Shown here: piece after piece, positions 43,272 to 61,330 of the stretch
Position numbering within the stretch: the stretch's first letter is position 1
How the letters are laid out: each line of letters opens with the position of its first letter
Assembly (NCBI RefSeq): GCF_008087345.1
Contig: NZ_VHIB01000001.1
Location: 248,001-312,000, forward strand
Source: Nocardioides caldifontis
Lineage (GTDB): Bacteria; Actinomycetota; Actinomycetes; Propionibacteriales; Nocardioidaceae
Direction: 5' to 3'
Length of the DNA: 64,000 bases
Program-made: the position numbers and the translations under genes
The notes under the pieces: model-generated
Seen by the model: the letters and a program-made list of their open reading frames with translations, nothing else
Told to the model about the DNA's origin: nothing
Database searches by the model: none

Positions 43272-44708
43272 TCAATCGTAGAGCGTCGTCGTGACGGGGA
43301 CAGAGGAGTCCAAGCCGGCTCGGCGGACGATGTCGGCTGCCCGGGCTCGTGCCTCGCGGCGAAGCTCGGTCTCCTCGATCGTGTTGACACGACCGTCGAC
43401 GTACAGCGGCCGACCGGCAACCCAGGTCTGCGCGATGCTGGCCGGGCTGGCCGACCACACGAGGGCTTGAAGCGGGTCGGCGAAGGGCACCCACTCGTGG
43501 TGGTCGAGGTCGAAGAGGACGAAGTCCGCGCTCTTCCCCACCTCGAGTGAGCCGATCTGGTGGTTCATGTCCAGCGCCGTGGCACCGTCTATCGTCGCCA
43601 TTCGTAGAGCCTTCTTGGCACCGACCAAATCGGGATCGAGTCTCGCGTCCTTGAACATCCCGCCCGCAAGATGGATCTGTCGGTGGAGATTCAGGTTGCC
43701 CGCCGCCGAGACTCCGTCGGTGCCCAGTGCGACCGTCACGCCCGCCTCCAGCATCTCCGGGTACCGCCCGATCGCAGTCGCGCCCTTGGCCAACTTCAAC
43801 GACGTCGAGGGGCAGAAGGCGACCGCGGTGCCATGTTCGGCAAGGAGAGCGACTTCCTCCTCCTTCGTGGCCACCGCGTGGGCAAGGACCAAGTTGGGCC
43901 CGAGCCCGCCGGCCTCTGCGATCCGGGTGATCGGCCACCGACCGTACTTGCGTTCACTGACATGGCTCTCCTCGATGCTCGATGCGATGTGGTACGTCGT
44001 ACCCACACCGAGTTCCGCGGCAAGTTCGCGGGCACCGAGATGCAGCTCCAGGGAACAGGGCTCCTTGCCTTCGATGTTCACCCAGCATCGGATTCGGCCC
44101 TCGGCGTATCCGTCCCAGCGCCGCACGGAGTACTCGAGCGCCTCGAGGGCGACCTCGTGATTCGGAAAGAAGTGATGCTCGAGCATCTCCTGCGACCAGC
44201 CCGGGGGGATCTCGCTCGGCATCTGATCCGCGGCGTGGCGAGCGACCACTCCTCTGATTCCAAGAGTTCCGGCTGTCTGGGCGGTCAGTCCGGCGTCGTT
44301 CTGTGCACCCATGTCGAGAAAGCAGGTGGTCCCGGAGCGCAACATCTCCGCAATGCCGAGTGCGACTCCGACCTTCTCGTCCTCTTCGTTCACATGCGCG
44401 TAGAAGGGCTTGGCCCAGTGGAAGACCCAGGCGCGGGTAGACAAGACATCGGGGAACACGGCTTTGGACAGGGTCTCCGAAAGATGGACGTGAGCGTCGA
44501 TGAGCCCCGGGATCATTCCAAGCCGCCGACCGTCGATCCTGCGGTCGATCGGCCGCTTGCCCACACGCGCGGTCACCTCCTCATGGCGGCCGACCTCTTC
44601 GATGCGGTCCCCGACGACGAGGACCGACGCGTTCCGAAGAACGCGGTCCTGCGCATCAACGGTGGCAACGAAGTCGAGATTCTCGATCAAGGTGACGAGC
44701 GTGTTCAT
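43272..44708 (-). CDS. Deaminase-type amidohydrolase (TRZ/ATZ/SsnA group)
   Basis: A 478-residue metal-dependent hydrolase. Metal ligands: His73 and His75 in IDAHVHLSE, a later His in TTYHIASSIEESH, His in LVLAHAV and Asp in ALGTDGVSAAG. The group includes atrazine chlorohydrolase, guanine deaminase and S-adenosylhomocysteine/methylthioadenosine deaminases, so deamination of a ring or side-chain amine is likely. It overlaps the MFS gene stop by four bases. Substrate unknown; context suggests a nitrogen compound. Confidence 0.85.
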   Translation of the reverse strand: MNTLVTLIENLDFVATVDAQDRVLRNASVLVVGDRIEEVGRHEEVTARVGKRPIDRRIDGRRLGMIPGLIDAHVHLSETLSKAVFPDVLSTRAWVFHWAKPFYAHVNEEDEKVGVALGIAEMLRSGTTCFLDMGAQNDAGLTAQTAGTLGIRGVVARHAADQMPSEIPPGWSQEMLEHHFFPNHEVALEALEYSVRRWDGYAEGRIRCWVNIEGKEPCSLELHLGARELAAELGVGTTYHIASSIEESHVSERKYGRWPITRIAEAGGLGPNLVLAHAVATKEEEVALLAEHGTAVAFCPSTSLKLAKGATAIGRYPEMLEAGVTVALGTDGVSAAGNLNLHRQIHLAGGMFKDARLDPDLVGAKKALRMATIDGATALDMNHQIGSLEVGKSADFVLFDLDHHEWVPFADPLQALVWSASPASIAQTWVAGRPLYVDGRVNTIEETELRREARARAADIVRRAGLDSSVPVTTTLYD

Positions 44709-45925
44709 GGCAGGTCCTCCCGCTGTGCTGGCGAAGGTGAGACGCGTCGACCCGGGCGAGGGTCGCGGCCGGCATAGAACGCAAGACTGGTGGCGAGAAC
44801 GTAGAGAACGACTACCGTTCCCCAGGCCACCGAGTAACTGTCGGTTGCGTCGGCGATGACGCCGAAGGAGGCCGGCCCACAGGCGAATCCGACGAAGAGT
44901 CCCGTGGCGAGCACGCCGGACGCCCGACCGAGCTCATGGACGGGGGCGAAACCCACAACCGCCACCATCACCACCACATTGGCAGCAACACCGGTGAGGC
45001 CGAAGAGTACGACGGCGCACCATAGGAGCCAGGTGTGGTCAAGCCATTCGGTGAGCATGACCAGACAGATGGACACGGCACCCCCGGCGGCCACTGTGCT
45101 CAGCGGAATGCGGATATGCGCGATCGATTGGGTCCAGTGCCCCCACAGAATCCGTGCACACACCCCCGCGGCGCCGACAAGGGACACCGTCAGGCCGGCG
45201 ATACCCACACGCCAGCCCAGCGCGTCGTGCGCGAAAATCGGAAGGTATGCGACCGATGCCTGAAGCCCTGCCCCGGTGAGGACGGCGTACGCCGCAAGTA
45301 GCCACACGGTGGGAGGCACGCCGCCGGAGCGGCGATCGCCTGCAGTCGAGAGCGACGAGCTCGCATGACGCGAAAGGCTGAGAGTGGCGAAAGCCGCACC
45401 GAGGGCGACGATCGGCAACGCGGCGATGAACGAGAACGACCAACCCACCAGAAGCGCCAACGGCGGCGCAGCAACGCCGGCAACGAGCTGGCTCATCTGC
45501 ACGCCGGATTGCTTCAGTCCCATGACGGCGCCACGCGCGCCTGGCGATACACGCATCGCAACGATGCGGTTCGTCACCGGGTTCCCCATCGCTTGCACCA
45601 GCCCGGACAGTGCCAGCCCGATCGTCAGTGCGAGGAGCGACGGCATGATGCCGATGATCAGCAGCGCGGCCGAGCTGAGCGCGTGCAGCACAAGCACCGC
45701 CGTCAGGGGTGACACCCTATCGACCGCGCGCCCAAGGACGGCGGAAGCAAGAGCCGCGGTCAGGAAGGCGGTGCTCGAAAGCCAACCGAACTCCGTCTTG
45801 CTGAGGTCGAACTCGTCCGTGATCAGTGGACCGGTGGCGGAGCAGATGAAGACCACGATGGGACCGGAGGCCATCGCCAGGACGAGTGTGGCAGTAAGCG
45901 CGACCGGCCTCTGCGATTCCGTCAA
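44705..45925 (-). CDS. MFS transporter
   Basis: A 406-residue major-facilitator protein with twelve predicted helices. Loop motif GRAVDRVSPLTA lies between helices 2 and 3, and ARILWGHWTQ between 8 and 9. The TTG start at 45925 is supported by an AGGTGG site. Translationally coupled to the amidohydrolase, so it probably imports that enzyme's substrate. Confidence 0.85.
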   Translation of the reverse strand: MTESQRPVALTATLVLAMASGPIVVFICSATGPLITDEFDLSKTEFGWLSSTAFLTAALASAVLGRAVDRVSPLTAVLVLHALSSAALLIIGIMPSLLALTIGLALSGLVQAMGNPVTNRIVAMRVSPGARGAVMGLKQSGVQMSQLVAGVAAPPLALLVGWSFSFIAALPIVALGAAFATLSLSRHASSSLSTAGDRRSGGVPPTVWLLAAYAVLTGAGLQASVAYLPIFAHDALGWRVGIAGLTVSLVGAAGVCARILWGHWTQSIAHIRIPLSTVAAGGAVSICLVMLTEWLDHTWLLWCAVVLFGLTGVAANVVVMVAVVGFAPVHELGRASGVLATGLFVGFACGPASFGVIADATDSYSVAWGTVVVLYVLATSLAFYAGRDPRPGRRVSPSPAQREDLP

Positions 45926-46123
45926 GGTGCCACCTGGTATCGGCGGAGACCACCGCGGAGCCCCGGTGCATGCTCCGCACTCATGTCCTGTCGACGTCTG
46001 ACGCGGTCCGAACGGCGCAGGGTCCGCAAAGCTCGACGTTGGGACGCTTGGTGACCGAGGTTTGATCGCGCCTCCGGCCAGATAGGCGGCCGGGCGAGAG
46101 ACGCTCGACCGAGTAGGCCCGGA

Positions 46124-47368
46124 TCACGAGATCAGCTCGATCGCGAGCTGGATTGCGCTGTACAGAATCATCAGCAGCGCCACCCCACCGATCAGGTTCT
46201 GCCACCACTTGTTGCGCAGGTCCCCCATCCGGGAACGATCGTTGGCCAGATAGAGCATGGAAATGCCGATCAGCGGAAATGCGAACAAGGTGAGGGCGTT
46301 CGCGACCAGGATCAGCTGGACCGGTGCGCCGCCGAAGATGAGGATCGCGAGAACGCCGATCGCCAGGACGGCGAGGCCGAGGATCTTCACCAGGTTGGCA
46401 TTCAGCGAGTTCGCGCGACCGAGTCCATCGGCGAAGACGGTCCCTCCCGCGGCGAAGTTGCCCACCACCGACGAGAAGCCGGCCGCGAAGATGCCGATGG
46501 CGAAGATGTAGGGCGCCGCGCCCCCTACCGTCGGCGCCAACGCCTCGGCGATGTCGTCGGCAGACTCAAGCGTTCGACCGTCCAGCACGGCTGCACCAGC
46601 AATGATGATCAAGATCGTGATCACGCCCGGCAGGATGACACCGGGGATCGTGTCAACGAGGGTCGACGACCGATAGTCACGCGCCTTCGTGCCCTTCTCG
46701 CGGATGGTGTAGGTGGCGTAGAAGGCGGCGTAGATGGAAAGGTTCGTTCCGAGCAGCGCGAACACGGCGACACTGTCCCCCGGGATCGACGCGGGGACGA
46801 AGCCTCCGGCTACCTCGAGCCAGTCCGGCTTCACCATGACCGCTGTGATGGCGAACACCGCCACCATGAGCGCCATCGCCGCGATCATCAGCTTCTCGAC
46901 GGCACCATAGGCGTCCCGCGCGAGCATCACCACGATCATCAGCACCGCGCAAACCACAGCCCAGACCTTGATGTTGAGGCCGAAGAGAGACACGAGTCCC
47001 AGGCTCGCGCCGACGAGGCTCCCGGTCATGAACAGACACGCGATCACGAAGACAGCGGCCCCCAAGGCAAGCCCCGTCGTTCGCCCGAACATCTCCTTGA
47101 TCGTGGCGACCGACGTACTCCTCGACGCCATCCCGATGCGCACGCCCATGTCCGTGTAGGCCAGCATCAAGAGGGAGGACGCCGCGATGAGCCAGATGAC
47201 CCCGAAGCCCTGCTCGGCTCCCGCGGTAGCGGCCGACACCGTGTTGCCCGGACCGAACTGCAGGGCTCCCACGATGATCGCTGGCCCGAGAACGACCAGC
47301 TTCTTCCAGCCCTTGAGAGCCGGTTCGCGACTGGCGCCATGAGAGGCAGCTTCGGTTGCTTCGCTCAT
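46124..47368 (-). CDS. Nramp-like transporter without canonical metal motifs
   Basis: A 414-residue transporter of the Nramp (SLC11) superfamily with about eleven helices. In true Nramp proteins helix 1 has DPGN and helix 6 a conserved Met-Pro-His motif that bind divalent metal. Here helix 1 reads GPGN (39-42, in LQFGPGNTVSAATAG) and the helix 6 region reads LLGTNLSIYAAFYATY (about 205-220), so both are lost. It therefore probably carries something other than Mn or Fe, perhaps an organic solute, as has been suggested for relatives next to catabolic genes. ATG 47368 follows GGAGG. A site of the shared GntR-type motif lies 75 bases upstream. Confidence 0.8.
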   Translation of the reverse strand: MSEATEAASHGASREPALKGWKKLVVLGPAIIVGALQFGPGNTVSAATAGAEQGFGVIWLIAASSLLMLAYTDMGVRIGMASRSTSVATIKEMFGRTTGLALGAAVFVIACLFMTGSLVGASLGLVSLFGLNIKVWAVVCAVLMIVVMLARDAYGAVEKLMIAAMALMVAVFAITAVMVKPDWLEVAGGFVPASIPGDSVAVFALLGTNLSIYAAFYATYTIREKGTKARDYRSSTLVDTIPGVILPGVITILIIIAGAAVLDGRTLESADDIAEALAPTVGGAAPYIFAIGIFAAGFSSVVGNFAAGGTVFADGLGRANSLNANLVKILGLAVLAIGVLAILIFGGAPVQLILVANALTLFAFPLIGISMLYLANDRSRMGDLRNKWWQNLIGGVALLMILYSAIQLAIELIS

Positions 47369-47781
47369 TTCTGACCTCCGAAGGGAGTCCAGAGCCGGTA
47401 GGCGTCTGGAATGGACCCCGTCGCCGAGCAGGCCCGGCGGCACTGGTCTGACGACTGATATGGTCGTGATCCAGGTTCCATCTGTCAATGCCGCGCTCGT
47501 AGGCCGGCGCCGGCGAGACTCACGAGCGGCAGGCGGGACGAGCCGTTGTGGTGGTCCGTATTTGGGATCCGTGGGCGCGCTCGGTGCGGCTGGCGAGCGG
47601 CGGCTCTCGAGGCTGTGGTTGACCGTTGCGCCTGCCGCGTCATCACCGCGACGACACCAAGCGAGCCAGTCCTGCACGCTGAACATGCGTCCGGTATCGA
47701 GGTTGAGACGTCGCTTGAAAGCGTCCCGCGGCGCGTGTCCGCGCGGACCGAGGAGCGCGGAAACCGTCCGCGCAGCGGAGT
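47369..47781. other. 413-base gap between pntB and the Nramp-like gene
   Basis: Holds site A and the leader of the Nramp-like gene. The part nearest pntB (about 47480-47780) has an open minus-strand frame with a protein-like stretch (RRLNLDTGRMFSVQDWLAW) but no start codon or ribosome site and no family I recognise; it may be a decayed gene. A small hairpin TCCGCGCAGCGGA at 47767-47779 may end pntB transcription. Confidence 0.4.
47443..47464 (+). promoter_or_regulatory. Shared GntR-type motif, site A
   Basis: CTGGTCTGACGACTGATATG followed by GT. It shares 17 of 22 bases with site C (61341-61362) and contains the core CTGGT-n3-ACGACTGA common to sites A, B and C. About 75 bases upstream of the Nramp-like gene start. 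Confidence 0.6.
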
Positions 47782-49224
47782 TCAGCTTCTCACGGGCTCG
47801 AGGGCCTGGGCGATTTCCTCGACCATGTTCTTGGCGTCGCCGAAGAGCATGTGGGTGTTGTCCCGGTAGAAGAGGGGGTTCTGGACGCCGGCGTAGCCGG
47901 TTGCCATGGAGCGTTTGAAGACGATGACGTCGCGTGCGTTCCAGACTTCGAGGACAGGCATGCCGGCGATGGGTGAAGTGGGGTCTTCGGCGGCGGCGGG
48001 ATTGACGGTGTCGTTGGCGCCGATGACGAGGACCACGTCGGTGGTGGGGAAGTCGTGGTTGATCTCGTCCATTTCGAGGACGATGTCGTAGGGGACTTTG
48101 GCTTCGGCGAGGAGGACGTTCATGTGGCCGGGGAGGCGGCCGGCGACGGGGTGGATGCCGAACCGGACATTGATGCCTTTGGCGCGTAGTCTCGCGGTGA
48201 GCTCGGCGACGGGGTATTGGGCTTGGGCGACGGCCATGCCGTAGCCGGGGGTGATGATGACTGTAGAGGCGCCTGCGAGGATCCGGGCTGCTTCCTCGGC
48301 TTGTATCTGGCGGTGCTCGCCTTCGTCTTGGCCGCCGCTGGTGGTGGTGGGAGCTTCCATGCCAAAGCCGCCGGCGATGACGGAGATGAAGGACCGGTTC
48401 ATGCCTTTGCACATGATGTAGGACAGGAACGCTCCGGAGGAGCCGACCAGTGCGCCGACGATGATGAGCAGGTCGTTGCGGAGCAGAAAGCCCAGCGCGG
48501 CTGCGGCCCAGCCTGAGTAGCTGTTGAGCATGGAGACCACCACGGGCATGTCGCCGCCGCCGATGGAGGCGACTAGGTGCCAGCCCAGCACGAGGGCGAG
48601 GGCGGTGATGATGATCAGCATCCACAGCGACGGGGCGAGCACGAACCATGCAGTGAGCGCGGCGAAGGTGAGGAGCGCGCCGATGTTGAGCACGTTCTTG
48701 CCCGGCAGCATCATCGGTGAGGGCTTGATCCGTGCGGACAGCTTGAGGAACGCCACGATCGACCCGCTCAAGGTGACCGCGCCGATGAAAACGCTGATCG
48801 AGACCTCCGCGGCGTGGATGCCGAGCAGCCCGATCGCGTCCAGAGCGCGGGCGGCGGGGCCGTCGGGGTGTGCCTCGACGTGGAGGTAGCGGTTCCAGCC
48901 GACCATGACGGCGGCTGCGCCGATGAAGCTGTGCAGCAGGGCAATCAGCTCAGGCATCCCGGTCATCTCCACCACGCGGGCGCGCCACAGCCCGATCGCG
49001 GCGCCGACGGCGATGGCGGCGGCGAGCAGGACCAGTCCGGAGGCCTGGGCGCCGTCGTCGACGACCACGGCGATCGTGGCAGCCAGCGCCACCCCCATGC
49101 CGAGGATGCCGAAGGTGTTGCCGGCCTTGGCGGTATCGTGCCTGGACAGCCCGGCCAGGGCCAAGATGAACAACAGCGCTGCCACGACGTAGGCAGCGGA
49201 CACGGCGGTCTGGATGGACAACAT
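47782..49224 (-). CDS. pntB: NAD(P) transhydrogenase, beta subunit
   Basis: A 480-residue proton-translocating transhydrogenase beta subunit. Domain II has about nine helices; domain III (from about residue 305) binds NADP with [48 protein letters not shown] and [15 protein letters not shown] 49224 has a strong AGGAGGAG site. It is fifteen bases downstream of pntA. Lower G+C at third positions than in region 1 is visible by eye. Confidence 0.95.
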
Positions 49225-49239: not shown

Positions 49240-50778
49240 TCAAGACCGCGAGAACATGGCCAGCATGCGGCGGGTCACTGCGAAGCCGCCGAAGATGTTG
49301 ATGCTGGCGAGCAGGACAGCCATGAACGACATCGTCGAGATCACCGCGTCGTCACTGCCGATCTGGAGCAGGGCGCCGACGATGATGATGCTCGAGATCG
49401 CATTCGTCACCGACATCAACGGCGTGTGCAGCGCGTGATGGACGTTCCCGATCACATAGAACCCGACCACCACGGCCAACGCGAGCACAACCAGGTGTCC
49501 CTGCAGCGCCGCCGGCGAGATCGCGACCAACCCGAACAACACCGCCGCCGAGACCGCCACAGCCAGCACCCGACCCTGCTCGGTCAACCTCCTCGACTCC
49601 TCTTTCGCGGCAGAGCCCGAAGTCGGGATCGGGGTCCGGGGTGCCGCTGAGACTTGCACTGCCGGCGGCGGCCACGTCGACTCACCCTCATGCACCACTG
49701 TGATCCCCCGCTGCACCACGTCGTCGAAGTCCAGCACTACCACCCCGTCCTTGCCTGGGGTGAGCAACTTGAACAGGTTGACGATGTTGGTGCCGTACAG
49801 CTGCGACGTCTGGGCCGCGAGCCGGCCCGCGAGATCGGTATACCCGAGGATGGTCACGCCGTTCTCGGTCACGACCCGCTGGTCGGTCTCGGTCAGCGCC
49901 GCGTTGCCGCCGTTGGCGGCCGCCATGTCTACGATGACCGACCCGTTGCGCATGCCGGCGATCGTCTCGGCACCGATCAGCTTCGGCGCCGGACGCCCGG
50001 GAATCAGCGCGGTGGTGATGACGATGTCAGCCGCCCGCGCCTCCTCGTCGTACATCGCGGCGGTCGCGGCCCGTTGCTCCGTGGTCATCTCCTTGGCGTA
50101 GCCGTCGGAGGACTTCTCAGCGAACAGCGACTCGTCGAGGTGCACGAACTGCGCACCCATCGACTCCACCTGCTCAGCCACCTCCGGCCGCACGTCAAAG
50201 GCGCGCACCACCGCACCCATCGCCGACGCCGCACCAATCGCGGCCAGGCCGGCAACTCCCGCGCCGACCACGAACACTCTTGCCGGCGGGACCTTCCCCG
50301 CAGCGGTCACCTGACCGGTGAACATCCGCCCGAACGCATGCGCCGCCTCGACTACCGCGCGGTAGCCGGCCACATTTGCCATCGAGGACAACACATCCAT
50401 CGACTGCGCGCGCGAGATCCGCGGCACCGCATCCACCGCCAACGCCGTCACACCAGCGGCCTGCAACCGCTTCAGCAACTCCGGGCTACGCGCCGGCGCC
50501 ATCATCGACACGATGATCGCGCCTCGGCACAACCGCCCGACCTCCTCCTCAGTGGGGGCATTGACCTTCACCACCACGTCAGCAGCCCACACCTCCCTCG
50601 CAGCGCCGACCCGGACACCAGCGTCAACGAACGCCGAATCCGGCTGATCAGCCGCCTCACCCGCCCCCGACTCCACGATCACGTCGTAGCCGAGATCGAT
50701 CAGTTGCGTCGCAGTCTTCGCAGTCGCCGCAACCAGCGTCTCGCCCGGTTTCGATTCACGAGGAACACCGATGAGCAA
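49240..50778 (-). CDS. pntA: NAD(P) transhydrogenase, alpha subunit
   Basis: A 512-residue undivided alpha subunit, like that of E. coli. Domain I binds NAD ([28 protein letters not shown], about 165-192) and has [15 protein letters not shown] and [16 protein letters not shown]. The C-terminal part has four helices (about 415-510, [20 protein letters not shown] onward). TTG 50778 is used because GGGAGG lies six bases upstream and the protein begins LIGVPRES. With pntB it interconverts NADH and NADPH using the proton gradient, and may balance cofactors for the adjacent NAD(P)-dependent opine-type enzymes. Confidence 0.94.
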
Positions 50779-50937: not shown

Positions 50938-51831
50938 TCAGGCCTCGCGGGCCGCCTCCACTTCGGCGATCCTCCGGCTGATGCCAACCCACTGGCTGCG
51001 GCCGACCGTGACCGGCGCGCGACGACCCATGCCCCTGGCCCAGACGAAACGGTGTCCGTGCTCGGTCGCACCGCGGCCATCGATCCCGCCCGGGGGCGCC
51101 GCGAGATCGATGAGGACGCAGGGGGACGGGAGCGCTCTCAGCACCTCGCCGGCCACAAGCGGAGCCGGCACGGTCGAGAAGACCATCGCGAGTTGTGGTG
51201 CCCGGTCGATCAGCTCATCCAACGGCGCCGCCTCCGCGCCTGCGCTCATGGCGTCGGCTCGCTGTACCGGATTCCTCGCGAAGACCGTGACCCGTGCTCC
51301 TAGAAGGACCAGCGTCCGGGCGAGCAGGCGCCCGATGTTGCCGTGTCCGATCACTCCGATGGCGGCACCGTGCAGTGAGACATCCGAATGGTGAATCGCG
51401 AGCTCGAGCGCACCTTCGACGATCGACGGCCCGCGCAACAGCATCAGTTCCCGGTCGTCTTCGTACCCGATGAGTCGGATTCCCGTAGCGGCTGCCGCCG
51501 CCTCGAGCTTGGAATCGGCCCACCCCAGGATGATGTGTGCGCCGGGGTTCATCTGCGACAGCACTTCTCGGTCGGGGATGATCGGCTGGTCATGCTCTGG
51601 CGCGAAAAGCGCACCTTCCGCAGTGATACCGGGGATCGGGAAGAGGGCGTAGTCGGCAGCCCGAAGCGCCGTCATCGCGCTGTCGGCCCTGTCGACGCCT
51701 TCGATGCCGCCGTCGGGCCACGGGAAGCCGAATCCTTCCACGACCGCGCCGGTCAAGGCCGCCAGACGCGCGATTTCCTGCTCACGCTCGTCACCGCCGA
51801 CGATGGCGATCTTCCGTGTGCTGAGATCCAT
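50938..51831 (-). CDS. DpaA-like (dipicolinate synthase subunit A) Rossmann protein
   Basis: A 297-residue protein resembling DpaA/SpoVFA of endospore formers. N-terminal KIAIVGGDEREQEIARLAAL (about 6-25), then a hydroxyacid-dehydrogenase-like NAD(P) domain with GVIGHGNIGRLLARTLVLLG (about 160-179) and AMVFSTVPAPLV. In Bacillus DpaA and DpaB make dipicolinate from a dihydrodipicolinate-type precursor. There is no DpaB here and no sign of sporulation, so it probably acts on another 2-oxo or imino compound. It lies 21 bases after the opine-dehydrogenase-type gene. Confidence 0.72.
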   Translation of the reverse strand: MDLSTRKIAIVGGDEREQEIARLAALTGAVVEGFGFPWPDGGIEGVDRADSAMTALRAADYALFPIPGITAEGALFAPEHDQPIIPDREVLSQMNPGAHIILGWADSKLEAAAAATGIRLIGYEDDRELMLLRGPSIVEGALELAIHHSDVSLHGAAIGVIGHGNIGRLLARTLVLLGARVTVFARNPVQRADAMSAGAEAAPLDELIDRAPQLAMVFSTVPAPLVAGEVLRALPSPCVLIDLAAPPGGIDGRGATEHGHRFVWARGMGRRAPVTVGRSQWVGISRRIAEVEAAREA

Positions 51832-54086: not shown

Positions 54087-54490
54087 CGGTGGCTGGCCTC
54101 TTCCGTGTCTGCAGGGTCGTCGAACAGCTCGATCTCGTAGCCGTCTGGATCCCGGATATAGACGGTGTGCCCGTAGGGGCCCGGGCCGGGCCCACGCACG
54201 ATCTCGCAACCCGCTGCGGCGGCATGGGCGGCGATCCCGTCGATACCGCGAGCGGAGAAGCACAGGTGCTGCAGGACACCCTTGCTTCCGGAGCCGCCCT
54301 CGGTGAGACCGAGACCTTGCTCAGTGACGATCAGGCGCCGCCCGTCACGGAACTCCTCCCGCTTTCGGACGGCAAAGCCGAGCACCTGGGTGTAGAAAGC
54401 CTCGGAGGCATCGAGGTCCCGGACCTCGAGGAGCAGGTGGTGGACCCGCACGACCGCGCTCGGCCGGGCGCCGCGCGACGGGGTGCTCAT
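54083..54490 (-). CDS. VOC-family (glyoxalase-like) protein
   Basis: A 135-residue single VOC domain: VRVHHLLLEVRDLDASEAFYTQVLGF at the start (metal His18 by count region), VLQHLCFSARGID in the middle and YIRDPDGYEIELFDD near the end with metal-site Glu. Lyase, isomerase or dioxygenase activities are possible. Four-base overlaps join it to the tautomerase and the enolase-superfamily gene. Confidence 0.85.
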   Translation of the reverse strand: MSTPSRGARPSAVVRVHHLLLEVRDLDASEAFYTQVLGFAVRKREEFRDGRRLIVTEQGLGLTEGGSGSKGVLQHLCFSARGIDGIAAHAAAAGCEIVRGPGPGPYGHTVYIRDPDGYEIELFDDPADTEEASHR

Positions 54491-54681
54491 GCGTCCGTCC
54501 GGTCGACACCCAGCACGCCGTTCCGCGCCCAGTTCTCGCGCGGGTACTCCTGGAGCGCGACATGCAAGGCATCGGGGTTGGCGTCGGCGTGCTCGACCAT
54601 TGCGTCCGTGATGGCACGAGTCAGCGCCCGCTTCTGGTCAACGGTCCGACCTTCCCAGAGATGTACGACTACGAATGGCAT
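54487..54681 (-). CDS. 4-oxalocrotonate tautomerase-like protein
   Basis: A 64-residue tautomerase. After removal of Met the catalytic Pro1 is exposed (PFVVVHLWEGRTVDQK), as in 4-oxalocrotonate tautomerase; an Arg pair for substrate binding is less clear. It catalyses keto-enol rearrangement of 2-oxo acids. First gene of the minus-strand operon, 67 bases downstream of motif site B. Confidence 0.85.
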   Translation of the reverse strand: MPFVVVHLWEGRTVDQKRALTRAITDAMVEHADANPDALHVALQEYPRENWARNGVLGVDRTDA

Positions 54682-54747: not shown

Positions 54748-54769
54748 CTGATGTCAGTCGTAGGACCAG
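54748..54769 (-). promoter_or_regulatory. Shared GntR-type motif, site B
   Basis: On the minus strand this reads CTGGTCCTACGACTGACATC followed by AG; 17 of 22 bases match site C. It lies between the tautomerase operon and the divergent gntR gene, 67-73 bases from each start. Confidence 0.65.
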
Positions 54770-54841: not shown

Positions 54842-55591
54842 ATGGCCCCACGCAAGGGTGGCGGTAAGCACGACTTCAGGACCATCGCCCGAGTGAGCCC
54901 GCCGGAACAGGTACGCACACAGATCATGCAGGCCATCGCCGATGGCGCCTACCCGATCGGCAGCATGCTCCCGTCCGAGCGCGTGCTGTGCGAGTCGTTC
55001 GGCGTGAGTCGAGTCAGCGTGCGGGAAGCTCTCGCCGGCCTCGAAGCCCTCGGAGTCATCAAGATCCGACACGGCAAGGGGGCGATCGTCCAGGAGCGGC
55101 CAGGCGGCGATTACGCCCTCCCCTTCGCCGACTACCTGAGGCTCTATCGCAGTGACATCGTCGAGTTGCTGAAGGTTCGACGCGCCTTGGACGAACTCGC
55201 GGCCGCAGAGGCTGCCGAGAACGCAGACGCCAAGGCACTCCGCCGACTGCGCGAGGCAGCCAAGGCGTTTAGCACGGCGGCCGAGCAGGATTCCGCGGTG
55301 CTGTCCGACGTGGCCGAGCGGGACGAACAGTTCCATCTCGAGGTTGCGGTCGCCGGCGGCGGCAAGCTGCTGCCTCGGCTCGTCGAGGAGTTGAACGGCG
55401 TCCTCACGCAATCTCGGCAACTCACGCTCGCTCAGGATGGCCAGATCGCGAGGTCGGTCAAGGAGCATCGGATGATCGTCGACGCGATTGTTTCCCGGGA
55501 TGCGGAGGGCGCGCGATCTGCCGCCGGAAACCACATCGAGCACATCGTCGCCTGGCTCGCCGCCGAGGATGAGCGGTCCACAGACGGTTAA
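54842..55591 (+). CDS. GntR-family regulator with FCD domain
   Basis: A 249-residue FadR-type regulator. The winged helix (about 20-85) has EQVRTQIMQAIADGAYPIGSMLPSERVLCESFGVSRVSVREAL; the C-terminal FCD domain (about 105-235) has RRALDELAAAEAAE, RDEQFHLEVAVAGG and EHRMIVDAIVSRD with the usual Asp/His metal ligands. Such regulators sense carboxylates or amino acids. Divergent from the tautomerase operon and the most likely binder of the shared motif. The following (convergent) genes are the molybdenum hydroxylase set. Confidence 0.88.
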   Translation: MAPRKGGGKHDFRTIARVSPPEQVRTQIMQAIADGAYPIGSMLPSERVLCESFGVSRVSVREALAGLEALGVIKIRHGKGAIVQERPGGDYALPFADYLRLYRSDIVELLKVRRALDELAAAEAAENADAKALRRLREAAKAFSTAAEQDSAVLSDVAERDEQFHLEVAVAGGGKLLPRLVEELNGVLTQSRQLTLAQDGQIARSVKEHRMIVDAIVSRDAEGARSAAGNHIEHIVAWLAAEDERSTDG

Positions 55592-55621
55592 GCGCAAGGG
55601 CGTGGACTGGGGACCCGACGG

Positions 55622-56140
55622 TCAGCCCCGGTCATGCGACGAACGCGGAGTTCCGCTCACGCGGCCGATCGCCTCGACGATGCTGTGGTAGCCGGTGCAC
55701 CGGCACAGGTTCGACGACACTGCTTCGCGGATCGCCTCGTGGTCCGGCGTCGGGTCCCGCCGAAGAAGGGCGGTCGCCAACATCAGGAAGCCAGGCGTGC
55801 AGAACCCGCACTGCAAACCACGGCACTGCGAGAACGCCTGTTGCAGATCGCTCGGCCGGTCGACCGTGCCCAGTCCTTCGACGGTCTCCACCGCGGCGCC
55901 TTGGACTTGAACGCTCAACACGATGCACGAGCGCACCGGCTCTCCGTCGACCAGCACGGTGCATGCGCCGCAGACACCGTGTTCGCAACCCGCGTGCGCC
56001 CCCGTGAAGCCACGGGCGCGGAGGTCGTCCAGCAGGCTCTCCGATGGATCGATCTCACGCGCACTCACCTTCCCGTTGATCCCATAGCTCACAGTCAGGC
56101 GAGTGGACCCGTCTCCGTCGTGGCGCTCCTCGTCAGTCAC
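55622..56140 (-). CDS. Molybdenum hydroxylase, 2Fe-2S small subunit
   Basis: A 172-residue iron-sulfur subunit with two clusters: plant-type AGCEHGVCGACTVLVDG and its later Cys, and GLQCGFCTPGFLM plus NLCRCTGYHSI. Standard length for CoxS/XdhC-type subunits. GTG 56140 is used; it overlaps the medium-subunit stop by eight bases. It carries electrons from the molybdenum cofactor to FAD. Confidence 0.9.
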   Translation of the reverse strand: MTDEERHDGDGSTRLTVSYGINGKVSAREIDPSESLLDDLRARGFTGAHAGCEHGVCGACTVLVDGEPVRSCIVLSVQVQGAAVETVEGLGTVDRPSDLQQAFSQCRGLQCGFCTPGFLMLATALLRRDPTPDHEAIREAVSSNLCRCTGYHSIVEAIGRVSGTPRSSHDRG

Positions 56141-57023
56141 CGGCTGTCCTCCAATCCTGCGCCGACCTCGAGAGCGCCTGGCGCACCAACGTCGACGCGA
56201 GCCGTCTGCGGTACTGCGACGAAGCGTGGATGTCGTCACTGACCTGGATCGATGCCGCACACATGTGGGCTGCCTCGGAGACAGCCTCCATCGTGGAGCG
56301 GCGGTCAGTCAGGTCGACGCCGTGGAGGACGTCCTCGGCGCTCGGCATCCGGATGGGCTGGCTGGCGACTCCCCCCATCGCGATGCGAGCCGTGGTGACC
56401 CGCAGTCGTTGGTCCGCGACCAGACGGGTTGCCGCCGCGACGATTGCGAAGTCGCCACGACGTCGCGAGTGCTCTGCCAGCGCGGAGCCCACTGTGGTGA
56501 GCGGCAGTTCGATCGCTGAGAGCAGTTCGTCCTCGGCAAGTGCGGTCGTGAAGAAGCCCTGGAAGAAGTCGTGCGCCGGGATCCGACGTACCCCCCGACC
56601 ACTCTCCGCCTGAATCACGGCATCGAGCACGAGCATCATCAGGCACCATTCCGAACTGCTGTCACCGTGCGCAAGGCTCCCGCCGATGGTGCCCCGAGAC
56701 CTGATCGGGGCATGGCCGATCAGGCGTGCCGCGTCCGACAACGCTCGACAGGCCGCCAGCTCCGGCGCATCGGCTCGTTCGAAGCGCACATGACGCACCG
56801 TGGCACCGCACGCAAGTGTCCCGCCGACTCGCTCCAGCTGTGCCAGTTCCGGGCAGTGTCCGATGTCGATGAGCCTGCTCGGACGCGCCAACCTCAGGTT
56901 CATCATCGGAATGAGGCTCTGCCCACCGGCGAGCACCTTGGCGTCGTCACCGTGCTCCGACAGGAGGGACACAGCCTCTTCCTTGGACTCGGCTCGATGG
57001 TAGGCAAACGATGCCGCTTTCAC
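56133..57023 (-). CDS. Molybdenum hydroxylase, FAD medium subunit
   Basis: A 296-residue CoxM-type FAD subunit: FAD-contact motif VLAGGQSLIPMMNLRLA (about 32-48) and RSRGTIGGSLAHGDSSSEW. GTG 57023 follows GGAGGAACAAG. It links the iron-sulfur subunit to an electron acceptor. Confidence 0.9.
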   Translation of the reverse strand: MKAASFAYHRAESKEEAVSLLSEHGDDAKVLAGGQSLIPMMNLRLARPSRLIDIGHCPELAQLERVGGTLACGATVRHVRFERADAPELAACRALSDAARLIGHAPIRSRGTIGGSLAHGDSSSEWCLMMLVLDAVIQAESGRGVRRIPAHDFFQGFFTTALAEDELLSAIELPLTTVGSALAEHSRRRGDFAIVAAATRLVADQRLRVTTARIAMGGVASQPIRMPSAEDVLHGVDLTDRRSTMEAVSEAAHMCAASIQVSDDIHASSQYRRRLASTLVRQALSRSAQDWRTAGD

Positions 57024-57084
57024 CTTGTTCCTCCGCCGCCTAGATGCCTGGGGACCCCGCAGCGCGACGGCGCCGTCCGAACTC

Positions 57085-59502
57085 TCACGGTCGCCGCCTG
57101 ATCCACCACCAGGCGAGAGCCACCGCTGCACTCGCTCCCACGAGCGCCGCGGGTACGTGGCGCTCCGGCCGGATCAAGAGTGTGCCTCCGCGGGCCTCGG
57201 TTCGCTTGGCGTAGTCCCAACCGCACGACCGGGGGCCGATTCCGTCCTGTCCGGCCAAGGGAGGAACGAACGGGAGCAGGGCATCCGGACCGATCGGGAG
57301 CCGGGTGATCGAGTCAGGTACGCCGAGGGCATCGGCGACCGCATTGGCAAGAGCGCCGCCCGCGCCCATGATCCCTGCTTCTCCCCCTCCCTTCACCCCG
57401 AGCGGGTTGGAGTCGGTGCCGGCGAGCTCCAGCAACACGACCTCCACATCGGGAGCCTCGTAGACGGTAGGGACGAGGTAGTCCATGAACGTGGTGCTCT
57501 GGGGCTGGCCGTGCTCATCGAAAGGAAGGTGCTGGAGGAACGTTCCCCCCACTCCCTGCATCGCGGCACCCACGATCTGGCCGACGAGTGACGGTCGGTC
57601 GATGGCCCGTCCACAGTCATACGCCACGACGAGCCGCTCGACCGTGACCGCAAGGGTGTCGGGATCGATGCGGACCACGGCGCCGTGGACCCCGAAGCCG
57701 AACGTGGGGCTCGACTGGCGGTGGGTGCCGATGACCGACCGTGGACCAAGAATCCGCCACGTGTCCGGATCCGAGGGATCGGCGGCAGGATCTGTGCTGC
57801 GAAGGTCGGCGAGAAGCTGCTGGGCGGCGTCATGGGCGGCGCTTCCGCTGAAGATGGTCGAACGAGCAGAAAATGTGCCGGTTCCGCCGTCGAAGTGCTC
57901 GGTGCTGTTCGTCACTACATCGATCCGTGCCTGCGGAACGCCGAGTACCTCAGCCACGACGATCCGGAGCATGGTCGCAAGTCCTTGGCCGATCTCGGAA
58001 CCGGCCGTAAGCAGCCGAAGCCGCCCTTCAGCCGTCACTTCGAGCTTGATGCTCTCCTCGACGCCCAGACCTGCGTGCGCGAGGAAGAGGCCGACCCCGA
58101 ACCCCACGAGTTCGCCCTCCATACGCCGCCTGTGGATCTCGGCACGGACGAGTTGGACGTCGACAGCTTCGGACAACTCGTCCAGCACCAAGGGAAAGTC
58201 ACCGCTGTCATACACCGAGGGGTGCATCTCACCGCCGAAGTCCTGCTGATAGGGCATCTCCTCTGCGGTGATGAGGTTCCGACGCCGGAACTCGAGCGGA
58301 TCCATCTCCAGCCGGGCGGCCACGATGTCCATCATCCGTTCCCGAACGAACCCGGCGTCGAAGGTACCGGGCCCGCGCATCGTTCCCATCGGGGTCTTGT
58401 TGGTTGCGACGGCGTGACACGTCACGTCGATGACCGGCCACCGGTAAGGCCCGGGAATCGCCTCGACAGGGATCTCGGTCAGTCGGCCGCCGATCGGACG
58501 AGCGTAGGCTCCGAAATCCTGAAGGATCTCGTCCTTGAGCCCACGCAGTCGCCCATCCGCGTCCACTGCCACCGTGATCCGATGCCGCTGACCCCGCGAG
58601 TGGTTGATCGCAAGGAAGTGCTCATTGCGGTCCTCGATCCATTTGACCGGACGTCGCAGCTTCAGGGCTGCCAACGGCACCAGGAAGTCCTCCGGATAGA
58701 GCTCACCGCGCGGGCCGAACATGCCGCCGACGTCGACGTGGTGGCAGACCACCTGGGCTGGCTCCAGATGGAACCACTCGGCAACCGACGCGCGCGTGAA
58801 ACGAACGAACTTGGTCGGTCCCCAGAGATGGAGTTCGGTGGCCGCAGCGTTCCACTCTGCGACCAACCCCCGCGTCTCCAGCGGGAGTCCGGTGTCTCGA
58901 GCGGTGTCGAACACCTGCGTGACGACGAGGTCGGCCTCCTGTGCCGCCTCCTGGAAGTCGGCCGTGCGCGCAACGAAGGAGCACAGACGCCCATCGGGCG
59001 TCGATTCCCAGACGGGATCCTTCTGCACACTTTCCACGTCGACGACGGGAACGAGCTCCTGGATGTCGAGCTCGACGAGGTCGGCCGCATCCTCGACCTC
59101 GCGCTGCGAGCGTCCGACCACGATAGCGACAGGCTCCCCGACATAGCGGACGACCGAGCCGGCGAGGACCGGTTGCAGGTAGCTTCTCAGCTCTGGGCGA
59201 TTGTGGACCCGTAGCGGTATCTCCGGCACGTCGTCCAGATCGGTCGCACACAGCGCCAACTCGACACCATCAGCGGCGCGAGCAGCCTCGAGGCCGACGC
59301 TGACGATCCGGCCGTGTGCGACGGGGCTGCGAACCACCCGCAGGAACAGCTCGCCGTCACGGCTCACATCGCCGACGTACTCCCCTTGACCGGTGACGAG
59401 CGGGACATCCTCGCGGCGTCCCCATTCAGGCCGGTCGTCGTCGATCTGTCGTCGACCCTGACGCGCGGGCCGAACCTTAGTCGCGAGCTGGTCCGGCGTC
59501 AT
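57085..59502 (-). CDS. Molybdenum hydroxylase, large subunit with C-terminal anchor
   Basis: An 805-residue xanthine-dehydrogenase-family large subunit. Visible: KWIEDRNEHFLAINHSRGQRH, GTMRGPGTFDAGFVRERM (373-390) in the place of the active-site loop, LTAGSEIGQGLATMLR, and the base Glu708 in VKGGGEAG. There is no AYRCSFR loop, so it is not a form I CO dehydrogenase. Unusually, residues 783-802 (PAALVGASAAVALAWWWIRRRP) form a hydrophobic tail after a basic stretch, suggesting anchoring to the membrane. Substrate unknown; ring hydroxylation of an N-heterocycle is plausible. Confidence 0.85.
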   Translation of the reverse strand: MTPDQLATKVRPARQGRRQIDDDRPEWGRREDVPLVTGQGEYVGDVSRDGELFLRVVRSPVAHGRIVSVGLEAARAADGVELALCATDLDDVPEIPLRVHNRPELRSYLQPVLAGSVVRYVGEPVAIVVGRSQREVEDAADLVELDIQELVPVVDVESVQKDPVWESTPDGRLCSFVARTADFQEAAQEADLVVTQVFDTARDTGLPLETRGLVAEWNAAATELHLWGPTKFVRFTRASVAEWFHLEPAQVVCHHVDVGGMFGPRGELYPEDFLVPLAALKLRRPVKWIEDRNEHFLAINHSRGQRHRITVAVDADGRLRGLKDEILQDFGAYARPIGGRLTEIPVEAIPGPYRWPVIDVTCHAVATNKTPMGTMRGPGTFDAGFVRERMMDIVAARLEMDPLEFRRRNLITAEEMPYQQDFGGEMHPSVYDSGDFPLVLDELSEAVDVQLVRAEIHRRRMEGELVGFGVGLFLAHAGLGVEESIKLEVTAEGRLRLLTAGSEIGQGLATMLRIVVAEVLGVPQARIDVVTNSTEHFDGGTGTFSARSTIFSGSAAHDAAQQLLADLRSTDPAADPSDPDTWRILGPRSVIGTHRQSSPTFGFGVHGAVVRIDPDTLAVTVERLVVAYDCGRAIDRPSLVGQIVGAAMQGVGGTFLQHLPFDEHGQPQSTTFMDYLVPTVYEAPDVEVVLLELAGTDSNPLGVKGGGEAGIMGAGGALANAVADALGVPDSITRLPIGPDALLPFVPPLAGQDGIGPRSCGWDYAKRTEARGGTLLIRPERHVPAALVGASAAVALAWWWIRRRP

Positions 59503-59505
59503 GCC

Positions 59506-60174
59506 TCACCCCTTCCGCGCTTGGCGACGGTGCCGTGCGGCGCGGCGACATCGCCTGCTCAAGAGCAGAGCGACGGCCACGAAGGCGCCCCCGGCGGCCC
59601 AGGGCCCCAACCGCCGGTACAAGGCCCGCAGCAGCACCGCGCCCACGTCAGCAGAATGGGACGGCGAGAACGAGCCGACGCGGTCGTCGTCTCCATCGGC
59701 GGTATCGCCCCCGGTCACTTGAGCCTCGAGGTTCCTGACGAACTGCGTGAGGAGGCCGTCAGAGACATCGGCGATGACCCCGCGGCCGAACTGTGCAGGC
59801 CGGCCGGTCAGTGACAGTTCCGTTTCGACAGTCACCTTGGTCGCATGTACCCCGTCGTCGGTCAGATGGAGCCTCACATCGGCCTTCGCCCCTCCGGCTC
59901 CGCCGGTCTCCCGGCCCTGTGCCTCGATCAGCGCGACCCCAGAGCCCCGGTCCTGGAGGATGAACCGGGCGACCCCCCGGTACTGCATTGCGACGGGGCC
60001 GATACGGACGCGGACCGTTCCCGAGAAGGAGTCGCCGTCGACGTCGCTCAGCGCGGCACCTGGGAAGCAGACCGCCACTCTCTCGATGTCGACGAGAAGG
60101 TTCCACGCCTCGTCGACATCGAGGGGAACCACGAACTCGTGCTCGAGCTTCAAACTGGACTCCTTCACTTCCAC
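59506..60174 (-). CDS. CoxG-like SRPBCC protein with C-terminal anchor
   Basis: A 222-residue protein. Residues 8-150 are a CoxG/SRPBCC domain (HEFVVPLDVDEAWNLLVDIERVAVCFPGA); a Gly/Asp-rich linker leads to a single C-terminal hydrophobic helix (about 188-207, GPWAAGGAFVAVALLLS) and a basic tail. CoxG of CO dehydrogenase clusters helps link the enzyme to the membrane and quinones. It ends three bases before the large-subunit start, supporting such a role. The start is GTG at 60174; GTG 60168 is possible. Confidence 0.82.
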   Translation of the reverse strand: MEVKESSLKLEHEFVVPLDVDEAWNLLVDIERVAVCFPGAALSDVDGDSFSGTVRVRIGPVAMQYRGVARFILQDRGSGVALIEAQGRETGGAGGAKADVRLHLTDDGVHATKVTVETELSLTGRPAQFGRGVIADVSDGLLTQFVRNLEAQVTGGDTADGDDDRVGSFSPSHSADVGAVLLRALYRRLGPWAAGGAFVAVALLLSRRCRRAARHRRQARKG

Positions 60175-60208
60175 GCCGGACTGGCGATCGGGAGCATGTT
60201 GGGTGAAC

Positions 60209-61330
60209 CTAAGCCTCGATGCGGATCAACTCGTCGGTGCTGGAAACGTCCGAGAGAAGCTCGCACCCGGTGGCGGTGACGTGGACCATGTCCTTGATCT
60301 GCATGCCGAACCCATGTCCACTGCGGTATACGAGGGGTTCGATACCCAGGACCATCCCGTCCTGGAGGCGATCGGTCACTCCTGGTCCCAGGTACGGAGG
60401 TTCGTGAAGGTTCACTCCGATGCTGTGACCGACGAAACCGATTGCTGGCATGTTCAGGGCGTCGAAGTGCTTCCTGTACTTGCGGTAGACGTCGCCAGCC
60501 ACGGCACCCGGCCGTAGGGCGTCCAGGACATGACTCTTGCACTCGGCGAGCCGTCGGTAGACATCTTGAGCCAAGGTGCTCGGTTCGCCCACGACCGCGG
60601 TTCGGCAGACGCCCGCCTGGTAGCCGTCGGCTACGGAGAAGATCTCCACCCGGCACACGTCACCCGGTTGGAGCACCCGGGTGCTCGGTCCGACGTTGGG
60701 CAATTGGCTTCGCTCTCCGGTCGCCACGATCATCAGTTTGAAACTGTGGGCACCCTGCTCGTAGACCCGGCGAGTGAGGGTGGCAGCGATGTCCATCTCC
60801 GTGTCGCCCGCACGGACCGCGCCGAGCGCATCGATGATCGCCGTCTCCGAGATCCGTGACAGTGTGGCTAGGAGGTCGACCTCAGAAGCGGTCTTGGTCT
60901 GGCGCACGACCGCCAGCGCCGCGTCGACCGGCACGAACGCCACTCCACCACACACGCTCTGAAGTTCCTCATAGTGACGCGCCGCCAGGTAGTCCAGTTC
61001 AATCCCGACCCGGCCGCCACTCAGCCCGAGGCTGGCAAGAACCTTCCCCAGAACGTGCATTGCGTTATCGGAGAACTCGGTCCAGGTACGGACGTCCCAC
61101 TCCGGCCGAGCCGCGCGCACCGTTTCGGCCTCCATGTCGACGCAGAAGAACGAGACGTCTCCACGAGCAGTCATGATGAGGGCTGCGTGTCGCCATCGCA
61201 TCAGGACCTGAGACGGCACGACGAAACCGGCGCTGTAGGCGATGTTCTCGGGCGACAGGCAAACAATCGCCTCGAGACCGTGCTCCGACATGACAGCCTT
61301 CAACTTCTCGGCGACGATTGGGTTTTGCAC
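60209..61330 (-). CDS. M24-family hydrolase, creatinase-like
   Basis: A 373-residue pita-bread-fold hydrolase with an N-terminal creatinase-type domain (1-130) and a C-terminal M24 domain. Conserved: GHSIGVNLHEPPYLGPG and VLGIEPLVY. The metal ligands of true aminopeptidases are not kept: the first Asp position is VCRVEIFS, the second Asp position reads GVCRTAVVG. Like creatinase and ectoine hydrolase it may be metal-independent and hydrolyse a C-N bond in a guanidino or cyclic amino compound. GTG 61330 follows GGAGG. It leads the operon with the molybdenum hydroxylase. Confidence 0.75.
   Translation of the reverse strand: MQNPIVAEKLKAVMSEHGLEAIVCLSPENIAYSAGFVVPSQVLMRWRHAALIMTARGDVSFFCVDMEAETVRAARPEWDVRTWTEFSDNAMHVLGKVLASLGLSGGRVGIELDYLAARHYEELQSVCGGVAFVPVDAALAVVRQTKTASEVDLLATLSRISETAIIDALGAVRAGDTEMDIAATLTRRVYEQGAHSFKLMIVATGERSQLPNVGPSTRVLQPGDVCRVEIFSVADGYQAGVCRTAVVGEPSTLAQDVYRRLAECKSHVLDALRPGAVAGDVYRKYRKHFDALNMPAIGFVGHSIGVNLHEPPYLGPGVTDRLQDGMVLGIEPLVYRSGHGFGMQIKDMVHVTATGCELLSDVSSTDELIRIEA

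Follow-up and report, generated by a model that had tools for sequence, protein, structure and literature searches.

A possible guanidino- or ureido-opine catabolic gene cluster of Nocardioides caldifontis, with a core shared across two phyla and exchangeable accessory genes

Introduction

Creatine and creatinine are degraded by bacteria along routes that use creatininase and creatinase, or creatinine deaminase, N-methylhydantoinase and N-carbamoylsarcosine amidase, and both creatinase and ectoine hydrolase act without metal. For Corynebacterium glutamicum, one study of creatine and creatinine use proposes a hydantoinase, an N-carbamoylsarcosine amidase and a transporter of the major facilitator superfamily (MFS) (PMC8864220). 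Here we analyse a cluster of sixteen genes at about 43.2–61.4 kb of a 64-kb window (the whole stretch of DNA under study, positions 248,001 to 312,000 of contig NZ_VHIB01000001.1), which is part of the 4.8-Mb, 33-contig genome of Nocardioides caldifontis. The cluster joins an amidohydrolase of the deaminase/chlorohydrolase group (AH) and a pita-bread hydrolase of family M24 to an opine-dehydrogenase-family enzyme (ODH), a DpaA-like NAD(P)-binding protein, an enolase-superfamily enzyme of the MLE type (MR), a tautomerase, a VOC domain protein, a molybdenum (Mo) hydroxylase, a transhydrogenase (PntAB) and two transporters.

A previous reading of the window, made from its letters only (the sequence-only reading), knew of no described pathway with such a set, and our full-text searches of PubMed Central with combinations of the enzyme names, a collection outside which most subscription papers and preprints lie, likewise returned no paper on it. 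As far as we have seen, a catabolic cluster as such is of a known kind, and the combination of enzymes and the exchangeable entry module are new.

The closest described systems share parts with the cluster and its relatives in other genomes and differ from them in others; protein families were assigned with Pfam and NCBIfam models, and NCBIfam scores are given as bits against the curated cut-off. (i) Creatine and creatinine degradation is alike in having a creatinase-fold route beside a deaminase–hydantoinase–cysteine-hydrolase route, an MFS transporter and a secondary amine that is released, but the clusters described here add the opine dehydrogenase, DpaA-like, enolase-superfamily, tautomerase and VOC enzymes. 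The window encodes a creatinase-fold hydrolase in which three of the five M24 metal ligands are replaced; the route through a hydantoinase and an N-carbamoyl amidase, by contrast, is missing from the window genome, its families being present in the complete clusters of other genomes. The hydantoinase of these clusters is of the cyclic amidohydrolase type, whereas PMC8864220 describes HyuB of a two-subunit hydantoinase. (ii) The Rut pyrimidine pathway (RutA–G) shares an isochorismatase-type hydrolase and, in plasmid-borne clusters, RidA, but the isochorismatase domain scores far below the RutB cut-off and the core described here has opine-type and enolase-superfamily enzymes. (iii) Ectoine degradation (doe/eut) shares an M24-fold hydrolase, whose predicted structure is near that of DoeA/EutD, but the window protein is far under the cut-offs of the ectoine-hydrolase models (77.7 against 575 and 56.8 against 613) and there is no deacetylase among the identified window genes. 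(iv) The opine dehydrogenase CENDH is of the same family as ODH, whose best PDB match over residues 3–349 is 1bg6, an N-(1-D-carboxylethyl)-L-norvaline dehydrogenase that we take to be CENDH from Arthrobacter (E 4.2e-50); CENDH is a single enzyme and not a pathway. (v) Dipicolinate synthase subunit A, for which we presume the Bacillus protein, shares the DpaA_N domain with the DpaA-like protein, which matches PDB 2rir over nearly its full length and also matches 3d4o, but the latter protein is below the DpsA/DpaA cut-offs (187.4 against 261 and 160.5 against 319.65) and belongs to a cluster of catabolic type, in which none of the identified genes encodes a second synthase subunit.

Results

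A core of seven enzymes recurs in Actinomycetota and Pseudomonadota

The core consists of AH, M24, tautomerase, VOC, MR, ODH and the DpaA-like protein, usually with a GntR/FadR regulator alongside. These eight genes are clustered in the window and stand side by side in two mycobacterial loci too. In the window they are:

43272..44708, minus strand: AH, amidohydrolase of the deaminase/chlorohydrolase group, core gene (Pfam PF01979)
50938..51831, minus strand: DpaA-like NAD(P)-binding protein, core gene (PF16924)
51853..52935, minus strand: ODH, opine-dehydrogenase-family enzyme, core gene (PF02317)
52932..54086, minus strand: MR, enolase-superfamily enzyme of MLE type, core gene (PF13378/PF02746)
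54083..54490, minus strand: VOC domain protein, core gene (PF00903)
54487..54681, minus strand: 4-oxalocrotonate-type tautomerase, core gene (PF01361)
54842..55591, plus strand: FadR/GntR-type regulator (PF00392 and PF07729)
60209..61330, minus strand: M24 pita-bread hydrolase, core gene, here the first gene of the cox operon (PF00557/PF01321)

Outside the window we compared 37 loci, all of them found through DpaA and not independent of one another, some of which end at contig ends; L014 and L015, taken as the same contigs as L031 and L035, and L066, which continues L065, were left out of this matrix. Thirty named loci came from a non-exhaustive two-peptide-pattern scan with one genome per species, and the plasmid matches comprise 14 records, five of which were fetched. 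All seven core enzymes occur in 22 of the 37 loci: ODH is present in 37, DpaA in 36, MR, tautomerase and VOC in 33 each, AH in 25 and M24 in 22. Two extra genes mark the complete clusters, a hydantoinase (34 loci) and an isochorismatase domain (31 loci), and the regulator is a FadR homologue in 14 loci and another GntR/FCD-type protein in 10. The tautomerase is 58–89% identical in its 33 loci, and the AH orthologues of the clusters are 59–77% identical. The Actinomycetota are represented by Actinomadura, Amycolatopsis, Leucobacter, Arthrobacter, Mycobacterium, Cellulomonas, Nakamurella, Thermoleophilaceae, Gaiella and others, the Pseudomonadota by Pandoraea, Rhizobiales, Woeseiaceae, Bauldia, Albidovulum, Paracoccaceae and one unplaced alphaproteobacterium, and the 14 plasmid records by Aminobacter, Shinella and Phyllobacterium.

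Part of the gene order is strict, with ODH directly before DpaA (36/36), the hydantoinase after DpaA (34/34) and tautomerase–isochorismatase–VOC in succession (31/31), while M24 and AH lie on one strand in 11 of 22 loci. Among 396 genomes sampled from the phylum, DpaA orthologues at 57–60% identity occur in three others, all beside tautomerase, VOC, M24, MR, ODH and AH; a homologue at 33% in one genome of the 396 has no other cluster gene within 20 kb and serves as a negative control. The orthologues are rare in all three samples drawn; the other two, searched at stricter E-value limits, gave one other genome of 391 and none of 394. Plasmid queries other than DpaA return the same records (MR 13/13, M24 13/15, AH 14/17), and an M24 homologue of Rhodococcus has no cluster around its gene; a Streptomyces record matched by AH carries no annotation at the place of the match. 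We consider it highly probable that the core represents one conserved pathway.

The mycobacterial loci are compact and hold the smallest set seen: an ABC ATPase, a permease, M24, AH, tautomerase, VOC, MR, ODH, DpaA and FadR. In one of them (L042) the cluster is preceded by a gene for a solute-binding lipoprotein-like product, and tautomerase and VOC appear, by eye, to share one reading frame; the solute-binding protein of the clusters has one weak PDB relative, from which no ligand can be read. The genus of the window organism has one genome with a full cluster, whose proteins are about as distant from those of the window as the Amycolatopsis ones are, which fits separate acquisition.

Further genes lie inside some of the clusters, namely malate synthase G and D-amino-acid dehydrogenase on the Aminobacter plasmids, aldehyde dehydrogenase and 2-oxo-acid dehydrogenase-type subunits in Actinobacteria (named by eye from the sequences), and RidA and NMT1/THI5-type uptake genes in the plasmid clusters. 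On Aminobacter aminovorans plasmid pAA03 (L054, 8137–29799), two copies of TniQ/TniB/Mu-type transposition genes with the same protein accessions flank the cluster. There AH is shortened and neither MR nor M24 was found, a state that suggests recent mobility and decay. A 227-residue protein annotated as 'resolvase' (L051, 20231–20914), with no Pfam or NCBIfam match, has homologues in 12 of the 37 loci.

Complete clusters carry a hydantoinase and an isochorismatase-type hydrolase

The window alone does not reveal two of the enzymes that complete clusters have. A cyclic amidohydrolase directly follows DpaA in most clusters; in Aminobacter sp. SR38 this enzyme comes closest to L-hydantoinase, hydantoinase and allantoinase but does not reach the curated cut-offs. 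VOC follows an isochorismatase-type domain within one protein in the relatives whose sequence was read, and stands alone in the window. Both members of the pair are present in 30 of the 37 loci and neither in two, which are the mycobacterial ones; a hydantoinase only is found in four and an isochorismatase domain only in one. Of these five single-member loci, L020, L025 and L034 (hydantoinase) and L049 (isochorismatase) break off at contig ends, and L039 (hydantoinase) is a 10-kb contig with a different arrangement.

A search of the window genome gave no close hydantoinase (best match 36%), and the isochorismatase–VOC fusion protein matched there with its VOC part alone and not with its isochorismatase domain. 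In the two mycobacterial genomes, too, even the best hydantoinase match is distant (29% and 26%), the other four genomes of the same search giving 64–78%. A tree built from joined ODH and DpaA sequences of 36 taxa places the mycobacteria beside a Thermoleophilaceae locus in which both genes are present (support 0.99), and the window falls in a different group, its exact place being weakly supported (0.43). Since the window and the mycobacteria thus sit in different parts of this tree, the pair has probably been lost twice as a unit.

The Mo hydroxylase, transporters and transhydrogenase are accessory genes

The remaining genes of the window cluster are:

44705..45925, minus strand: MFS transporter (PF07690)
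46124..47368, minus strand: NRAMP-fold transporter (PF01566)
47782..49224, minus strand: PntB, transhydrogenase beta subunit, extra copy (NCBIfam 721.8 against cut-off 689)
49240..50778, minus strand: PntA, transhydrogenase alpha subunit, extra copy (NCBIfam 778.9 against cut-off 383)
55622..56140, minus strand: Mo hydroxylase small [2Fe-2S] subunit, coxS (PF01799/PF00111)
56133..57023, minus strand: Mo hydroxylase FAD subunit, coxM (PF00941/PF03450)
57085..59502, minus strand: Mo hydroxylase large subunit, coxL (PF02738/PF20256/PF01315)
59506..60174, minus strand: CoxG-like protein (PF06240)

The minus strand thus reads M24, coxG, coxL, coxM and coxS, then tautomerase, VOC, MR, ODH, DpaA-like, pntA, pntB, NRAMP-like, MFS and AH, and the FadR gene lies on the plus strand between coxS and tautomerase. 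Every protein family named in the sequence-only reading was recovered in its place with Pfam; its gene list left out the FadR/GntR-type regulator (54842–55591) and the CoxG-like protein (59506–60174). That reading had also taken core and accessory genes as one pathway set. What is kept together across two phyla is the seven-enzyme core, whereas CoxL, CoxM, CoxS, CoxG, the NRAMP-like protein and the MFS transporter occur in none of the 37 other loci, and PntA and PntB in four, each of which is plasmid-borne (Aminobacter, Phyllobacterium and Shinella); the Pandoraea locus has a fragment of PntA where its contig ends. These genes therefore lie outside the conserved core. Both Pnt proteins pass the cut-offs for a proton-translocating transhydrogenase, and a second, separate set at about 808129–810931 of the same contig makes the window PntAB an extra copy.

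The closest PDB relative of coxL is 7dqx, a 6-hydroxypseudooxynicotine dehydrogenase (E 1.1e-132), and quinoline 2-oxidoreductase is near too; at E 1e-100 the large subunit found no match among plasmids. By the curated model TIGR02416 it is not an aerobic CO dehydrogenase (CoxL form I), its score of 294.8 being far below the cut-off of 991.15. Form I carries the motif AYXCSFR, which differs from the loop TPMGTMRGPG of the window protein.

NRAMP divalent-metal transporters bear the metal-site motifs DPGN and MPH; the window protein reads GPGN at the first and has no MPH in TM6, while it passes the Nramp_1 'divalent metal transporter' model (82.4 against 50), which counts against a non-metal reading. 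Homologues (32–43%) were seen in 7 other genomes of 394, all outside this cluster, and in 8 plasmid records, one of which was opened. Neighbours were read for four relatives: those in L075, L078 (both by eye) and the Neorhizobium plasmid L082 (annotated), at 40–43%, lie beside DapA-family and LacI-type genes, and L077 has no DapA-family gene beside its relative. Because three of the four have such neighbours, the context suggests that the NRAMP-fold protein moves an organic solute instead of metal.

A 19-bp site links the accessory genes to the core

Three copies of an operator-like site, CTGGTNNKACGACTGAYRT, are found at promoters of the cluster:

47443..47461, plus strand: operator-like site 1, upstream of the NRAMP gene
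54751..54769, minus strand: operator-like site 2, between the divergent tautomerase operon and FadR
61341..61359, plus strand: operator-like site 3, upstream of the M24-cox operon

The site was recognised from 10-mers common to the M24 upstream region and the divergent tautomerase/FadR promoter, the copy before NRAMP being spotted by eye. Having been built from these copies, the pattern matches all three exactly by construction; 100 shuffled versions of the window contain no exact match. What is informative is that the site is nearly absent elsewhere and that it is placed at three promoters. In the whole 4.8-Mb genome, with up to two mismatches, the three window sites are joined by one other place, which has two mismatches. 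In other genomes the half-site TGGTNNNACRA occurs in the divergent AH/M24 gap of all six loci that have one (L065, L021, L026, L032, L037 and L048), the background being 28 occurrences in 758 kb for all 37 loci together.

The site is carried by three transcription units: M24-coxGLMS, tautomerase–VOC–MR–ODH–DpaA–pntAB with FadR, and the genes led by NRAMP. To judge from these promoter sequences, the M24-cox operon, the core operon and NRAMP look like one regulon in this genome, and we infer that FadR is the protein that binds the site. Because they share it with the core, we take the Mo hydroxylase and the NRAMP-like protein as recruited parts of the local pathway.

The core enzymes are not named by family models

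Among the NCBIfam matches listed for AH, M24, MR, ODH, the DpaA-like protein and the Mo hydroxylase subunits, none reaches its cut-off, and hence these models do not name the enzymes. At the positions that we take to be the M24 metal ligands, both Asp and one Glu are changed in 18 of 24 aligned rows, including the window and both mycobacteria; in the window protein they have become Glu, Gly and Lys, respectively, and the His and the other Glu are kept. Its predicted structure (pLDDT 93) is most similar to the ectoine hydrolase DoeA/EutD (Z 40.6, rmsd 2.6 over 363 residues) and to creatinase (Z 39.8, rmsd 2.1 over 362 residues), and its best PDB matches in sequence are proline dipeptidases and aminopeptidases.

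AH falls below the cut-off of each of the best 25 of its 44 NCBIfam matches. An alignment of 18 sequences (mean identity 76%) keeps the HxH motif, two further His and one Asp invariant, residues to which we presumably can assign metal roles, but not the Glu three residues after the strand-5 His, the usual deaminase residue of the H-x-x-E motif. The model of AH (pLDDT 83, with four segments below 50) is nearest to adenosine-deaminase homologues and isocytosine deaminase, at Z of about 45. For MR, K-x-K, D, E, D and a second K, which we take to be the MLE-type catalytic motifs, are conserved in 34 sequences; it scores 208.7 against 334.95 with the muconate/chloromuconate cycloisomerase model TIGR02534, and a dipeptide epimerase is its third PDB match.

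Base composition and surroundings of the cluster

In 2-kb bins the GC content is 0.64–0.69 at 42–62 kb and 0.69–0.75 in the remaining bins of the window, and third-position GC is 0.70–0.89 in the cluster genes (the script-called ones, a set outside which NRAMP and VOC fall) against mostly 0.90–0.98 elsewhere in the window. These deviations, with the recurrence of the core in other phyla, make the cluster more than a chance assembly, and it looks like a mobile catabolic cluster that was probably gained by horizontal transfer and is present here in a reduced and rewired form.

The cluster is adjoined by sdaA, a lipA-like gene and, read by eye, glyA, gcvT and gcvP, a glycine/serine group (window 61699–63072 onward; contig 306001–326000), and this neighbourhood may be just the place of insertion. 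The lipoyl-synthase-like gene beside sdaA (63000–63965, minus strand) shows frame changes and is either broken or affected by sequencing error; lipoyl synthase NCBIfam models match one of its frames in two stretches, below the cut-off.

Discussion

The explanation that we prefer, tentatively and as a possibility short of probable, is that the window holds an acquired, reduced and rewired cluster with guanidino- or ureido-opine chemistry for one nitrogen compound. Complete clusters contain relatives of both creatinine routes, with an opine dehydrogenase in place of sarcosine oxidation, and for this reason a substrate resembling creatine or creatinine, a guanidino or ureido derivative of an opine-like secondary amine, may be proposed, though doubtfully. 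In the window organism the Mo hydroxylase would possibly oxidise the substrate first. AH would hydrolyse an exocyclic amine or amidine; in complete clusters the hydantoinase would then open a cyclic ureide and the isochorismatase-type enzyme would decarbamoylate the product, while the window organism and the two mycobacteria would use the M24 route alone, M24 cleaving the amidino C–N bond. ODH and the DpaA-like protein might oxidise the freed secondary amine to an imine, whose hydrolysis would yield a 2-oxo acid together with an amino acid. The enolisable acid would be rearranged by MR, tautomerase and VOC, and PntAB would balance NADPH and NADH. The products would enter 2-oxo-acid and glyoxylate/glycine metabolism, and glyoxylate and 2-oxo acids as products fit the malate synthase G, D-amino-acid dehydrogenase, and aldehyde and 2-oxo-acid dehydrogenase-type genes of other clusters. 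The outline of the sequence-only reading, in which ring hydroxylation, C–N cleavage, deamination and oxo-acid rearrangement act on a nitrogen compound, is reasonable as well, fair but unproven. Glycation products of arginine, pterins, tRNA bases, phytosiderophores and diketopiperazines were weighed as substrates and none was chosen.

About as likely as the guanidino- or ureido-opine chemistry, and no less open to doubt, is a nucleobase-type pathway for an amino-pyrimidine, a pterin or a modified purine with an amino-acid side chain, in which AH and a cytosine-deaminase-like AH3 would deaminate, the hydantoinase would be a dihydropyrimidinase, the isochorismatase-type enzyme and RidA would act as in Rut, and ODH, DpaA and MR would process the side chain. 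The fold of AH, tied between adenosine-deaminase homologues and isocytosine deaminase, is what such a pathway would have, and AH3 of Aminobacter sp. SR38 passes the cytosine-deaminase model PRK07583 (586.4 against 403); a search of the window genome with AH3 gave no match, a negative that by itself carries no weight. RidA, which is of the family of RutC, and NMT1/THI5-type uptake genes in the plasmid clusters point the same way, as do RutB as the best, if far sub-threshold, match of the isochorismatase domain and the nearness of the Mo hydroxylase to enzymes of N-heterocycles. However, some genomes do without the hydantoinase and isochorismatase pair and still keep ODH, DpaA, MR, AH and M24, which argues that the core is not the ring opening of a pyrimidine, and AH is without the usual deaminase Glu. 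It is unlikely, in turn, that the Mo-hydroxylase operon and the conserved core are two separate pathways side by side: the absence of coxLMSG from every other locus and the FadR gene set on the plus strand between both operons would agree with such a division, but a core gene, M24, heads the cox operon, in which genes are 3 to 61 bp apart or overlap, and the same 19-bp site, nearly absent from the remaining genome, stands at both operons and at NRAMP.

The M24 hydrolase has other possible readings of its own. That it opens the ring of a cyclic amidine, as in ectoine breakdown, or of a cyclic amino acid draws on DoeA/EutD being its top fold, but its scores far below the ectoine-hydrolase cut-offs and the lack of a DoeB-type deacetylase among the identified window genes, the part of the genome searched for it, count against it, and we hold it to be unlikely. 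We regard as very unlikely a dipeptide or diketopiperazine pathway with hydantoinase-like ring opening, MR as dipeptide epimerase and M24 as dipeptidase; the best sequence matches of M24 and the third match of MR are what it predicts, but the dipeptidase metal ligands are lost in most M24 rows, and AH, the isochorismatase-type enzyme and the opine-type dehydrogenase would have no role in it.

Several observations weigh against the guanidino- or ureido-opine reading itself. Its substrate, products and steps are all deduced from gene content and unproven, it does not sharply predict the roles of MR, tautomerase, VOC and the DpaA-like protein, and the Mo hydroxylase that it places at the entry is in 0 of the 37 other loci. 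In five loci the M24 of the core operon retains the full set of five ligands, and L043 encodes both types; chemistry without the metal ligands is therefore not universal; prolidases, from Z 39.1, tie with creatinase for the M24 model. The isochorismatase-type domain is distant from known hydrolases (80.8 bits with RutB against 378). Gene order is looser outside the strict pairs (MR directly before ODH in 27/33 loci, VOC before MR in 20/31), AH and M24 are absent from the available stretches of 12 and 15 of the 37 loci, several of which end at contig ends, and two Actinomadura loci (L022 and L033) have neither within about 10 kb on both sides. As for the operator-like site, 6 of 100 shuffled windows gave at least three matches when three mismatches were allowed, a backward control pattern matched once in the genome, and the half-site occurs five times in the window, at the three promoters, once inside coxL and once far away.

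Put at its widest, and with doubt, the proposal is an undescribed guanidino-/ureido-opine pathway of Actinomycetota and Pseudomonadota, plasmid-borne, with a fixed core and exchangeable front ends. In most genomes the front end would be a deaminase–hydantoinase–decarbamoylase module, from which hydantoinase and decarbamoylase would have been lost as a unit at least twice, and in the window a Mo hydroxylase and an NRAMP-fold organic-solute transporter would have been recruited under the same FadR-type operator. That the cluster recurs across phyla and on plasmids suggests that its substrate is frequent enough in the environment for selection to maintain the genes. To name this compound would add a metabolite and its catabolic route, provide functions for enzymes now annotated as 'dipicolinate synthase' or 'Xaa-Pro peptidase', and show how the core of a pathway can swap its entry module.

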